From the NCBI GenBank assembly GCA_945877805.1, contig CAMCSM010000009.1, forward strand, positions 1 through 47,682: a DNA stretch of 47,682 bases, in the 5' to 3' direction. A program made the translations under genes and the position numbers. Shown here piece by piece: positions 3,951-8,188 of the stretch. The notes beneath the pieces are model-generated. The model was given only the letters and a program-made list of their open reading frames with translations. It searched no databases and was not told where the DNA came from. Within the stretch, counting starts at the first letter, position 1. Each line of letters opens with the position of its first letter. Origin of the DNA: Methylacidiphilum caldifontis (lineage in GTDB: Bacteria; Verrucomicrobiota; Verrucomicrobiia; Methylacidiphilales; CAMAQI01).

Positions 3951-4831
3951 AGCGAGTCGCTTTAGCAATTTTAAATTTCGAAGGAGTCGCGCATCTGGAG
4001 ATTCTTTTGCCGACAGCTTTGGAGGCGGTACGAATTTATGGCGATCCATGCCCGATCCTCGTTTTGGATAATCAAAGTCAAACAGGGGATAAGGAATGGG
4101 TAAGGACTCATTTCCCGACGGTTGAGGTGATTATTGCCTCTAAGAACGACTATTTATTTTCTTACAACGAACTTTTACAATCAAGAGAAGAGGAGATCGT
4201 TATATTATTAAATAATGATTTAAGATTAGCTCCTGATTTTATCCCTCCGTTGGTGAAGCATTTTGAGCGCCCCGATGTTTTTGCGACGACCTCCCTCTCC
4301 TACGACTGGGAGGGGAAGAGCGTGACCTCTGGGCCGGCCTCTTTTCGGATTCATCATGGATGGTTTTATACGGAGTTCGATTTAAGTTGTTCCGTGGCGA
4401 CCCCGACCTTATTTCCGACAGGGGGCTATGCGGCCGTCGATCGAAAAAAGTTTTTGGAGCTCGGGGGATTTGATCGGCTTTATTATCCGGCCTATGGCGA
4501 GGATTTAGATTTGGGGTATCGAGCGCAACAGCGGGGATGGGTCACGATTTATGAGCCGGAAAGTAAAGTTTGGCATCGGGAAAACGGATCGATGACAAGT
4601 AAAAGGGCGGTGCATCTGATTTTGGTTTCGCAGTTTCTTTTTCAATGGAAAAACTTGCGGAGTTTTTCGATTCGATGGAGGCGCTCGATTTACATTCAAT
4701 GGCTCCGCTATTGCGGTTGGAGAAAAGGGGAGGGGGCCTTTGAGAAAGCGTATCAGGAAGCAAAAGAGAAATTTAAACCGAGTATCGTGTGCCTAGAAAA
4801 GAAGATTAACCACAATGATGAAAAATCTTAA
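3947..4831 (+). CDS. Glycosyltransferase family 2
   Basis: VLDNQS..., LLNNDLRL, GGYAAVDRKKFLELGGFDRLYYPAYGEDLDLGYR; start taken at the ATGA overlap with the PAP2 gene instead of the track start 3905. Confidence 0.88.
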   Translation: MKRVALAILNFEGVAHLEILLPTALEAVRIYGDPCPILVLDNQSQTGDKEWVRTHFPTVEVIIASKNDYLFSYNELLQSREEEIVILLNNDLRLAPDFIPPLVKHFERPDVFATTSLSYDWEGKSVTSGPASFRIHHGWFYTEFDLSCSVATPTLFPTGGYAAVDRKKFLELGGFDRLYYPAYGEDLDLGYRAQQRGWVTIYEPESKVWHRENGSMTSKRAVHLILVSQFLFQWKNLRSFSIRWRRSIYIQWLRYCGWRKGEGAFEKAYQEAKEKFKPSIVCLEKKINHNDEKS

Positions 4832-4916
4832 ACCACAAAAGGTTCGTGAAACGAACAAGTTAGATCACCGGAGGTGCTCGTAATTTTAGTGCAGTGGTAG
4901 ATGGGGGTACAAATCT
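4822..4916. repeat. ~95-bp direct repeat, copy 1
   Basis: AAAATCTTAAACCACAAAAGGTTCGTGAAACGAACAAGTTAGATCACCGGAGGTGCTCGTAATTTTAG...GGTAGATGGGGGTACAAATCT; near-identical to 6004-6097. Confidence 0.95.
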
Positions 4917-5130
4917 TCACTGATTAACGCTTATAAACCTAAAAACGGCAATCCGTTTAACCACGGATGGAGGAGTTTATGAAAATGAACCTCTGTTTTT
5001 TCCTTCACCCACAAGATGAAGGCTGATTTTTTCCTAAACCGTTGAAAATCCGTGTGATCCGCGTTATCCGTGGTTCCAACTGCTTTTTCTAGGATAAAAC
5101 AAATTTGAATTTTATCAGCGAAAATCAGCG

Positions 5131-5238: not shown

Positions 5239-5628
5239 TTACCAAATTGTTTTCACCGCATACTGAGCGATCAAACGATCAGGGGTGATCAACGGCTGAT
5301 CCAAAATTTGAGCGGTGGCCACAATCATTCGATCGGCAGGATCTTTATGATGCCACGGAAGAGTTTCGGAGCGATGTGCAATTTCCCGCGTGATCGATTG
5401 ACACTGAATCGAAAAATCCTCCATCACCGCCTCCAACCAAGGCTCCAGATCCCGTTCCTTCATTTGAAACTCCAAACGTCCCGCCCTTAAAAGCCGGTGA
5501 ATCTCGATCACCGTCATCGCACTGATCCAAAGATCTGAGGTCGACTCCAGCACTTTCATTGCCTTCGGCGAGATCGATTCTCTCTGACTCGTCAGCCAGA
5601 TGAGCGTGCAAGTATCCAAAACCGCCAT
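5239..5628 (-). CDS. PIN-domain toxin (VapC-like), module A
   Basis: MAVLDTCTLIWL...HKDPADRMIVATAQ; start adjusted to the TAATG junction with the antitoxin. Confidence 0.88.
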   Translation of the reverse strand: MAVLDTCTLIWLTSQRESISPKAMKVLESTSDLWISAMTVIEIHRLLRAGRLEFQMKERDLEPWLEAVMEDFSIQCQSITREIAHRSETLPWHHKDPADRMIVATAQILDQPLITPDRLIAQYAVKTIW

Positions 5629-5882
5629 TACCATCCCTCCCACACACTCGCAGGAAGCGGCTCTACCAGCTTTGAAACACTGACTTTCGATTTCAACTTT
5701 CCGTAATACTTTCGAGATTTAAATTTCTGAAGCCGTTCCTCAAATGGGCGGTTCTGAATCTGCGTTAATTTCAATAACACCTCTCCTTTTGCCCCGCGTC
5801 GAATCAACACGCTCTCCCCACGCATCGCCTCGCGGACTAACTTCGAAAAATGAGTTTTCGCTTCATGTATGGTGTACGTCAT
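5628..5882 (-). CDS. Phd/YefM-type antitoxin, module A
   Basis: MTYTIHEAKTHFSKLVREAMRGESVLIRRGAKGEVLLKL; start adjusted from track start 6020; 1-nt overlap with the toxin. Confidence 0.85.
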   Translation of the reverse strand: MTYTIHEAKTHFSKLVREAMRGESVLIRRGAKGEVLLKLTQIQNRPFEERLQKFKSRKYYGKLKSKVSVSKLVEPLPASVWEGW

Positions 5883-5942
5883 AATATTAGTCCACCTTAG
5901 TCTATTTTTACGATAAGTCAATTTTCCAACCATCTCTATCCT

Positions 5943-5975
5943 GTGGGAGAGCTCCCTCAAGTCGTCAAGGAGGGA
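5943..5975 (-). promoter_or_regulatory. Shared TA-upstream element E, copy A
   Basis: Gene strand CTTGACGACTTGAGGGAGCTCTCCCAC; similar to copies upstream of modules B and C. Confidence 0.6.
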
Positions 5976-6003
5976 ACAAAAAGAACGGTCCACCCCCATG
6001 AGG

Positions 6004-6097
6004 AAAATCTTAAACCACAAAAGGTTCGTGAAACGAACACGTTAGATCACCGGAGGTGCTCGTAATTTTAGTGTAGGGTAGATGGGGGTACAAATCT
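6004..6097. repeat. ~95-bp direct repeat, copy 2
   Basis: About two substitutions and a 1-nt indel relative to 4822-4916; contains GTTCGT-GAA-ACGAAC and CACC-GGA-GGTG hairpins. Confidence 0.95.
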
Positions 6098-6175
6098 CCG
6101 CTCCCGTCACTCTCTTCCCCCTGAAAGTTTTCAATAATTAATGATGAACGGTCAAATGCTCGGCAAGGAAAACGG

Positions 6176-6343
6176 TCACGGACCGAAACTTATCTTTTCA
6201 TCGGCGTAAATCTCCACGCGATTCCACAAATGATCCCCTCCGACCCCGACGGTATTCAATTGAAAATTGATTTCATCCTTTGGCAAAGGGATCTTCACCG
6301 CCTCCTCCAATAATCGCTGCATTTCCCCCTTAACCGATTTCAT
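6176..6343 (-). CDS. Small hypothetical protein (55 aa), absent from the ORF track
   Basis: MKSVKGEMQRLLEEAVKIPLPKDEINFQLNTVGVGGDHLWNRVEIYADEKISFGP*; preceded by a consensus sigma70-like promoter. Confidence 0.65.
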   Translation of the reverse strand: MKSVKGEMQRLLEEAVKIPLPKDEINFQLNTVGVGGDHLWNRVEIYADEKISFGP

Positions 6344-6349
6344 ACTAAT

Positions 6350-6378
6350 ATTATAATGATACTGTTATATTTTGTCAA
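6350..6378 (-). promoter_or_regulatory. Consensus sigma70-type promoter TTGACA-17-TATAAT
   Basis: Gene strand TTGACA AAATATAACAGTATCAT TATAAT ATTAGT ATG. Confidence 0.85.
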
Positions 6379-6421
6379 ACAACAGAAAGGAGATCTCTTT
6401 TCTTCCTATAGCCTAATTTAG

Positions 6422-6448
6422 GTAGATCAGCGAAAAGTCGTCAAAGAA
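6422..6448 (-). promoter_or_regulatory. Degenerate element E, copy D, upstream of the 55-aa ORF
   Basis: Gene strand TTTGACGACTTTTCGCTGATCTACC, matching the TTGACGACTT core. Confidence 0.4.
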
Positions 6449-6567
6449 TCTGGCGGACAAGAAGGAACGCAGAGAAGAAAGACAAAATTCTTTTCCTGAT
6501 TTTCAGCTTTCCTGAGAGACTCCTCGTGTTTTTTCTAAGGTACTCGTCACGATAACTTTCCTCTGAA

Positions 6568-6951
6568 TTAAATCATCTTCAGCCCATACCGAACAAAAGG
6601 CTCAAAGTCAGCCCGGTTGTTCGTCGCCAATTTCGCATTCGCAATGATCGCTGTTCCAGCAATCATCAAATCTATCCGATGTTGGCGTTTTCGTTGGATT
6701 GCGTTGAAAAGACGAGCCGACTCAAACGCTTCGGATTCCCCAAAGGGAATAATTTCAGAAAGGAATGAGCGGAGCGTCATGACTTGATTTTCCGTCACTG
6801 GCCCACAAAGGAATTCAAACCAGACGGGCATGGGAACGATTAATTGTTCTCCTGATTTCACCCATTCGATGAGTGATGCAGATTCTCTCGTTCCCTGAAC
6901 AATTCCCCGAATCAAATAATTCGTGTCGAGGCAGATCATTCTTTTCGCCAT
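6568..6951 (-). CDS. PIN-domain toxin (VapC-like), module B
   Basis: MICLDTNYLIRGIVQG...HRIDLMIAGTAIIANAKLATNNRADF. Confidence 0.9.
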   Translation of the reverse strand: MAKRMICLDTNYLIRGIVQGTRESASLIEWVKSGEQLIVPMPVWFEFLCGPVTENQVMTLRSFLSEIIPFGESEAFESARLFNAIQRKRQHRIDLMIAGTAIIANAKLATNNRADFEPFVRYGLKMI

Positions 6952-7205
6952 CGTTTACGATCCTCTCGAACCTGTTTCAGGAATAACTCCGCTTGTTTTG
7001 AATCAAGACCGCCTCCCTCACGATGGAGTTTTTGAAGAAGAAGGACCGGATCGGGCTTCTTGATTTGAATCATCCCTTCCGCCTGCTCCACCGACCGTCG
7101 AACGACCTCTGCCTGGGAGACCTGCCACTGCTTCGCCAGACGTTTGAGTCGCTGGGCAGTCACCGCATCCAATGCAAATGTGGTCCGATGGGTCATTTTA
7201 GCCAT
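6936..7205 (-). CDS. Ribbon-helix-helix (CopG-like) antitoxin, module B
   Basis: MTHRTTFALDAVTAQRLKRLAKQWQVSQAEVVRRSVEQAE; start moved from 7250 to 7205 because a promoter-like sequence lies inside the extension. Confidence 0.83.
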   Translation of the reverse strand: MAKMTHRTTFALDAVTAQRLKRLAKQWQVSQAEVVRRSVEQAEGMIQIKKPDPVLLLQKLHREGGGLDSKQAELFLKQVREDRKRWRKE

Positions 7206-7240
7206 ACCATCAGATATACCATCACTTTTTATTTTTTCAA
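7204..7240 (-). promoter_or_regulatory. Putative promoter/operator of module B with two TGATGGTAT direct repeats 12 bp apart
   Basis: TTGAAA-16-TATATC; TGATGGTATATCTGATGGTATGG overlaps the -10 and the start codon. Confidence 0.6.
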
Positions 7241-7259
7241 GGATTCGCATCCTGCTGAA

Positions 7260-7291
7260 GTGGGAGACTCTCGATAAATCGTCAAGGGGGA
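7260..7291 (-). promoter_or_regulatory. Shared TA-upstream element E, copy B
   Basis: Gene strand CTTGACGATTTATCGAGAGTCTCCCAC. Confidence 0.6.
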
Positions 7292-7319
7292 ATGAAAAGA
7301 GCGATTTACTTGTCTTCTC

Positions 7320-7691
7320 TTAGTGGTTCGTTTTATACGGAATCCGAACCCACGGTTTTCGAGGATCAAAATCTTTTGAGTTTCGAGTGACCAAAAGGCA
7401 GTGATGAACTTGTGCGGTCGCAGCGATTAAAGCATCGGGAAGCCTTATCTTTTCTTTTTGTCGAATCCGAACCCCCTCCTCAGCAATCTCTTGATCGATT
7501 TCAATCATTTTAAAAGCCTCTAGAAATTCCCGAGCGCTCTTTTGATCTTTTTCATTTTCTGCTCCTACCATGACCTCCATCCAAGAGATCCGAGAAATAG
7601 AGCGATGCCGATAGCTCTCGATCTCTTTTTTGGCCTCCGAAATACCGTTCAAAAAATCAATTAAAATATTGGTATCAAAAAGAGCCTTCAT
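7320..7691 (-). CDS. PIN-domain toxin (VapC-like), module C
   Basis: MKALFDTNILIDFLNG...LPDALIAATAQVHHCLLVTRNSKDF; start set at the ATGA overlap with the antitoxin. Confidence 0.9.
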   Translation of the reverse strand: MKALFDTNILIDFLNGISEAKKEIESYRHRSISRISWMEVMVGAENEKDQKSAREFLEAFKMIEIDQEIAEEGVRIRQKEKIRLPDALIAATAQVHHCLLVTRNSKDFDPRKPWVRIPYKTNH

Positions 7692-7915
7692 TTCTCCCAT
7701 TCTCCCCGGATTTTTCGTTGATACTGGAGTCCATCGACTTTCTTCCCTTTCCACGCTCCAAATCCCGTGAGTGATTCCCCTTTTGCCAGAGATTGCTGGG
7801 AAAGATAATAACCCACTGCCTCCTGAACTATCCTCATCCGAGGACACTTTCGATGCCGAGCGATCTTATCCAGAGCCTCCACCTGCTCCTCGGAAAAATT
7901 GATTAATACTTTCAT
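7688..7915 (-). CDS. Ribbon-helix-helix (CopG-like) antitoxin, module C
   Basis: MKVLINFSEEQVEALDKIARHRKCPRMRIVQEAVGYYLSQQ; start adjusted from 8002. Confidence 0.83.
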   Translation of the reverse strand: MKVLINFSEEQVEALDKIARHRKCPRMRIVQEAVGYYLSQQSLAKGESLTGFGAWKGKKVDGLQYQRKIRGEWEK

Positions 7916-7920
7916 AAAAA

Positions 7921-7942
7921 ATACAATATATCGATATTGTAT
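7921..7942 (-). promoter_or_regulatory. Putative autoregulatory operator of module C
   Basis: ATACAATAT-N4-ATATTGTAT inverted repeat overlapping TTGAAG-16-TATTGT immediately upstream of the antitoxin. Confidence 0.7.
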
Positions 7943-7987
7943 ATCTTCAACTCTTTTCGGACTTTGCGAGACAACCATCCCTCTCCC

Positions 7988-8020
7988 GTGGGAGACTCTC
8001 AACGAGTCGTCAAGAGAAGG
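7988..8020 (-). promoter_or_regulatory. Shared TA-upstream element E, copy C
   Basis: Gene strand CTTGACGACTCGTTGAGAGTCTCCCAC. Confidence 0.6.
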
Positions 8021-8110
8021 ACAAAAACAGATTTAACCGCAAAGGTCACAGAGGAAAAAGCCCAAAGCACTATTTCACACCAAGCACAAAGCGGCCCAAG
8101 ATTCCCTTCC

Positions 8111-8188
8111 GAAGAAAATAAAACTGTTTTTCTCTTCCTTTGTGTTCTTTGCGCCTTCGTGTGAGAAAATGCCTTTGATCCTCCCCAT
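8111..8188. repeat. 78-bp intergenic repeat, copy 1 (second copy at 15813-15890)
   Basis: GAAGAAAATAAA...TTTTTCTCTTCCTTTGTGTTCTTTGCGCCTTCGTGTGAGAAAATGCCTTTGATCCTCCCCAT; about 4 mismatches between copies. Confidence 0.95.

Follow-up and report, generated by a model that had tools for sequence, protein, structure and literature searches.

The 47,682-nucleotide stretch of Methylacidiphilum caldifontis DNA analyzed here, which we call the window, carries three toxin-antitoxin (TA) modules, A to C, and the remnant of a fourth, D, all on the minus strand. Each is preceded by a short, promoter-like element, and the antitoxin coordinates that follow are given from the ATG closest to it. Module A encodes an antitoxin (5628 to 5933) whose canonical ATG, at 5882, lies in frame 17 codons downstream, together with a PIN toxin (5239 to 5631; PF01850, E=8e-15). 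This antitoxin is of the Phd type, scoring above the cut-off for TIGR01552 and below it for PF02604 (E=8e-5). In module B, the antitoxin (6936 to 7250, inner in-frame ATG at 7205) is a weak RHH_1 protein and the toxin (6568 to 6951; PF01850, E=1.5e-7) is VapC-like. Module C combines a second VapC-like PIN toxin (7320 to 7691; PF01850, E=2e-18) with an antitoxin (7688 to 7978, inner in-frame ATG at 7915) that appears RHH-like by eye and has no Pfam or NCBIfam match. Three PIN toxins beside small antitoxins identify these as type II PIN TA modules, and the statement in the preliminary description that the antitoxins come from different families stands. Its view that a shared operator is unlikely was also right, as the modules differ in the repeats found downstream of the element, such as a dyad with 9-bp arms in module C (7921 to 7942).

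The same description had pointed to a weaker copy of the element before an un-annotated 55-aa ORF. The copy is indeed present, and the ORF (6176 to 6343) proves to be the antitoxin part of module D, a FitA-like antitoxin/PIN remnant (6093 to 6387) recognized by blastn similarity to loci L080 and L079, in which nucleotides 6093 to 6194 are a toxin fragment. Module D is intact, with a FitA-like_RHH antitoxin and a PIN toxin, in G001, one of the two congeneric genomes that we compared, the other being G002. Also in this part of the window, a direct repeat of ~100 bp (97% identical; 4822 to 4921 and 6004 to 6102) flanks module A, with an 85% copy in locus L130 and weaker copies of 71 to 72% in L128. 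For a neighboring 1369-aa protein, no relatives were found among the genome contigs searched.

By inspection and pattern search, the three complete elements conform to TTGACGAYT-N9-TCTCCCA and occur, as originally written, on the minus strand before modules A (5944 to 5968; TTGACGACT-N9-TCTCCCA), B (7261 to 7285), and C (7989 to 8013). Elements B and C are matched by the pattern first proposed (≤3 mismatches, with no match in 100 shuffles), by a relaxed pattern, and by a sequence model of the element built from 33 copies; element A is picked up by the relaxed pattern and by the model. The decayed copy of module D (TTGACGACTTTTCGCTGATCTACCT; 6420 to 6444, minus strand) is a weak model match, and homology to module D of G001 stops at this point. 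Short dispersed intergenic repeats of the 'CCGTGTGATCCGCG..ATCCGTGGTT' or 'ATTCGTGTGAATTCGTGGTTAA' type lie upstream of several elements, and within the window they occupy ~5040 to 5090 and 8040 to 8180.

The element had been placed 80 to 100 bp upstream of the antitoxin ATG, a distance that overlooked an in-frame ATG only 10 nt away. When the flanks of all copies were compared, TCTCCCA was followed after 10 to 11 nt by ATG, or rarely GTG, in nearly every copy (34 of the 35 first tabulated, with a pattern that permits 9 to 11 nt). A search for TTGACGA-N-ATG that ignored the second box still gave a spacing peak at N28-29. The element faces its gene in every case. Orthologous copies share 97.5% and 98.4% identity in the two boxes, compared with 60% in the spacer, 66% in the following 10 nt, and 39% in the preceding 40 nt; this contrast is large, even though it is partly circular because the sites had been found by motif.

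Searching the genome and its relatives revealed that the element is a feature of the genus. The strict pattern TTGACGAYTN{6,16}CTCCCA finds 16 sites in the host genome and none with a reversed control, and among 60 relatives its matches are confined to the three genomes of the genus. The sequence model (E≤0.5) yields 24, 27, and 21 matches in these three genomes and, in 57 other genomes of the order, a single borderline match (E=0.006). Once the downstream genes were inspected, the pattern and model searches left ~21 convincing sites in the host, with similar sets in both congeners. A concentration upstream of TA or cargo genes, which had been anticipated, is evident in that ~8 of the 21 host sites belong to TA modules. 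The majority of sites do not, which rules out a TA-specific tag; these are mostly single sites outside any array that precede type IV secretion and DNA-processing genes.

The secretion genes that carry the element include VirB4 (a TraG P-loop, TraC-like protein), a TrbI/VirB10 operon, a TrbL/VirB6 operon, two weak TrbC/VirB2 pilins, and, in G001 only, the VirD4 coupling protein. The same control site precedes a group of DNA-uptake and DNA-processing genes, namely DprA (in two species), ComM (assigned by sequence, without an HMM), YraN (in G001), and an exported endonuclease/exonuclease (hereafter DNase). An exception is comEC, which is present and at which no element was found. TA genes with the element comprise modules A to C, the FitA-type D, and Phd-PIN, YefM, Phd, YefM-PemK, and RHH-PIN units, as well as genes for an addiction-module protein and a HigA-like protein. 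It also precedes ORF6N, GxxExxY (PDDEXK_3), and DUF1016 genes, the last of these read by eye. At VirB2 and DprA, coding begins 51 and ~170 nt downstream, on the same strand. In another family of the order, 12 of 13 genomes encode VirB4 (36 to 38% identity), which suggests that the secretion system is a long-standing chromosomal one rather than a recent plasmid. Its genes are spread over many contigs; at host loci L081, L122, L123, and L124 they are scattered on several contigs, mostly with their own element copy. The virB4 gene of more distant relatives, unlike this scattered arrangement, closely follows other genes, and no obvious matching promoter was seen upstream of it.

These observations agree with the suggestion that the element is a common expression signal, and we consider it probable that it is a dedicated promoter with a nearly leaderless start, driving a competence or DNA-transfer regulon that has recruited TA modules. 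The sequence TTGACGACT would contain a -35-like box and TCTCCCA(C) would be a C-rich -10-like box 13 to 14 nt away, such that transcription would begin at or within a few nucleotides of the start codon 10 to 11 nt downstream. The distant starts of VirB2 and DprA fit a DNA promoter better than a translation signal. The regulon, as predicted for these three species of one Verrucomicrobiota genus, would be small and would serve most likely competence or DNA exchange, uniting chromosomal type IV secretion, DprA, ComM, YraN, the exported DNase, and several TA modules. The lack of the element at comEC and the restriction of the VirD4 site to G001 count against this regulon. Purine-rich, Shine-Dalgarno-like bases occur within the 10 nt before the ATG in many copies, and these speak against leaderless initiation because a leaderless mRNA would not need them; in several copies (ComM, DNase) the purine-rich stretch is entirely absent. 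Among 104 element-free gene starts, a leaderless-like signal (TA...T at -13 to -11) and Shine-Dalgarno signals both occur, suggesting that the organism employs both modes. Despite this weak general leaderless-like signal, a housekeeping leaderless promoter was rejected as an identity for the element because the full motif marks only ~21 to 27 genes per genome.

The TA modules share a further arrangement. Of 11 unrelated modules, 10 have an outer start next to the element that is in frame with, and open to, an inner antitoxin start 15 to 31 codons downstream (with frame and stops taken as random, P is about 9e-9; for frame alone, it is 1.3e-4). The extension of antitoxin A is in frame in all three species, and that of antitoxin C in the host and G001. 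In the HigA-like module and in module C of G002, the outer ORF instead terminates at an ATGA that overlaps the antitoxin start, an arrangement that would permit translational coupling. Most modules contain a sigma-70-like promoter inside the extension (combined P about 1e-8 versus mononucleotide shuffles), often in leaderless register. Such inner promoters are seen in module B (TTGAAA at 7240 to 7235, N16, TATATC at 7218 to 7213), in module C (TTGAAG-N16-TATTGT, 7923 to 7950, overlapping the dyad), and in module D (TTGACA-N17-TATAAT, 6350 to 6378, 6 nt before the ATG at 6343). The module D promoter has 12 of 12 consensus matches and is the same in G001, and its -35 box stands as far from its ATG as the TTGACG of the element does from its own. 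The simplest reading is that the element lies outside a sigma-70-type, presumably autoregulated promoter that would give the short antitoxin. Activation of the regulon would give a longer transcript that begins at the outer ATG and yields a regulon-specific, N-terminally extended antitoxin isoform plus toxin. This dual-start design recurs in unrelated families and is testable. It would give a concrete role to a set of chromosomal TA modules, which appear wired to a DNA-transfer and recombination program. From the motif, a competence-like regulon can likewise be predicted in this phylum, in which the literature searched describes none; searches that paired competence and type IV secretion with Methylacidiphilum or Verrucomicrobiota returned nothing relevant.

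A more specific proposal, which we regard as possible and put forward tentatively, is that a genus-specific alternative sigma factor runs this DNA-exchange regulon together with the captured, unrelated TA modules, with outer leaderless transcription generating the extended antitoxin isoform. If true, altered autoregulation or stability of the extended antitoxin would link the activity of the toxin with DNA exchange. Our search of the host identified eight sigma-70-family genes. One of them, L045 (contig C13), encodes an odd 341-aa sigma factor whose N-terminal extension is unusual; the gene is present in the host and G001 and was found in none of 37 other genomes of the order. Of the two factors whose distribution was examined, L045 and L048, it is the sole genus-restricted one seen, and it is a candidate regulator only. 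Its apparent absence from G002 (87% complete), which has the motif, is a point against control by an L045-type sigma factor. L048 was rejected because it is absent from both motif-bearing congeners.

An unlikely alternative is that the element combines an activator site with a main-sigma promoter and that the regulon responds to DNA damage, not competence. Mycobacterial PafBC promoters carry a TTGTCR-type motif at and after -35. The acceptance of the variant TTGTCGACT at VirB2 and at TA modules is in line with such a site, and a damage response could plausibly also include DprA, YraN, nucleases, and TA modules. Most copies, however, have no A+T-rich -10 at the usual distance and instead a C-rich, nearly invariant second box, and conjugation-type genes are not classical repair genes.

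Less likely still is an RNA-level element, located in the 5′ untranslated region and bound by a protein or small RNA, in which CTCCC masks the Shine-Dalgarno sequence. The fixed spacing to the start codon would be explained, and by eye many copies have downstream GGGAG-type sequences complementary to CTCCC. Against this, the purine-rich stretch is missing at ComM and the DNase, the VirB2 and DprA starts are much farther off, and an Rfam search with the element gave no match. A small hairpin with a hint of covariation had been proposed, and that idea is refuted, because 36.4% of cells in the proposed stem pair versus 36.0% in shuffles. A structured RNA built on this stem was thus discarded.

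We return to the putative promoter in its genomic setting, where TA modules and element behave as units. Module order is C-B-D*-A in the host, B-D-C-A in G002, and A-D-C in G001, the flanking genes also differ, and the element travels with its module when order and genomic address change between species. For units C and D, interspecies homology stops at the element. Units therefore move or recombine between species, and the notion of a movable unit was partly right. Locus L003 of the host (contig C5) and locus L073 of G002 (contig C11) share an almost identical promoter and first six codons (MNEKYE), which stand before a DUF1016-like gene in the former and a GxxExxY gene in the latter, a pattern suggestive of promoter capture or gene replacement. 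The preliminary description had favored a cassette boundary or recombination tag that moves TA modules, and the shuffled order, the homology breaks, and the promoter shared by two different genes are what it would predict. We nevertheless judge it highly improbable, as most sites are single and lie before VirB4, ComM, DprA, and other non-TA genes outside any array, orientation and spacing track the start codon, module 3′ ends have no matching boundary, and the same picture would arise at any breakpoint where shuffled units retain their promoter. Of the mobile TA cassette array that had been envisaged, the shuffling of modules as units between species holds; no recombinase or recombination site was found, and nothing points to site-specific recombination. 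An integron-like gene-cassette array was rejected, since the element is confined to the 5′ side of genes, is tied to the start codon, and in most cases lies outside arrays.

The putative promoter resembles those of several known systems and departs from each. With sigma-32 (RpoH) promoters, whose consensus is CTTGAA-N13-17-CCCCATNT (PMC4263515), it shares a similar -35 box, a C-rich -10 box, and similar spacing. The element has CTTGAC and CTCCCA with a spacer within 13 to 17 nt, as compared with CTTGAA-like and CCCCAT-like boxes, and so resembles the consensus without matching it; the E. coli dnaK promoter taken for this comparison was confirmed upstream of dnaK. A heat-shock regulon is unsupported. 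The boxes TTGACGACT and TCTCCCA differ, the genes are not heat-shock genes, no element was found at the single groEL locus (the only chaperone locus examined), and none of the eight host sigma genes reaches the cut-off of the RpoH model.

The literature searched offers one case that links TA to DNA transfer, the single toxTA module of Haemophilus influenzae. This module belongs to the Sxy/CRP competence regulon and is read from an outer competence promoter as well as from an inner one that the antitoxin represses (PMC6957337). On the reading proposed here, the host likewise places TA operons under competence control and has an additional, inner promoter that the antitoxin would repress. In H. 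influenzae, a single operon is served by a CRP/Sxy activator site, the antitoxin gene comes second, and the inner promoter is inside toxT, whereas the host has many unrelated modules with a different motif, the antitoxin first, and in-frame upstream starts. The streptococcal ComX (sigma-X) late-competence regulon is likewise a small DNA uptake and processing regulon with a dedicated promoter type, and in these respects it is like the one proposed here. ComX itself is described as the alternative sigma factor for late com genes (PMC13101493). Unlike the ComX regulon, the proposed one would use a different motif, in a different phylum, and would include type IV secretion genes.
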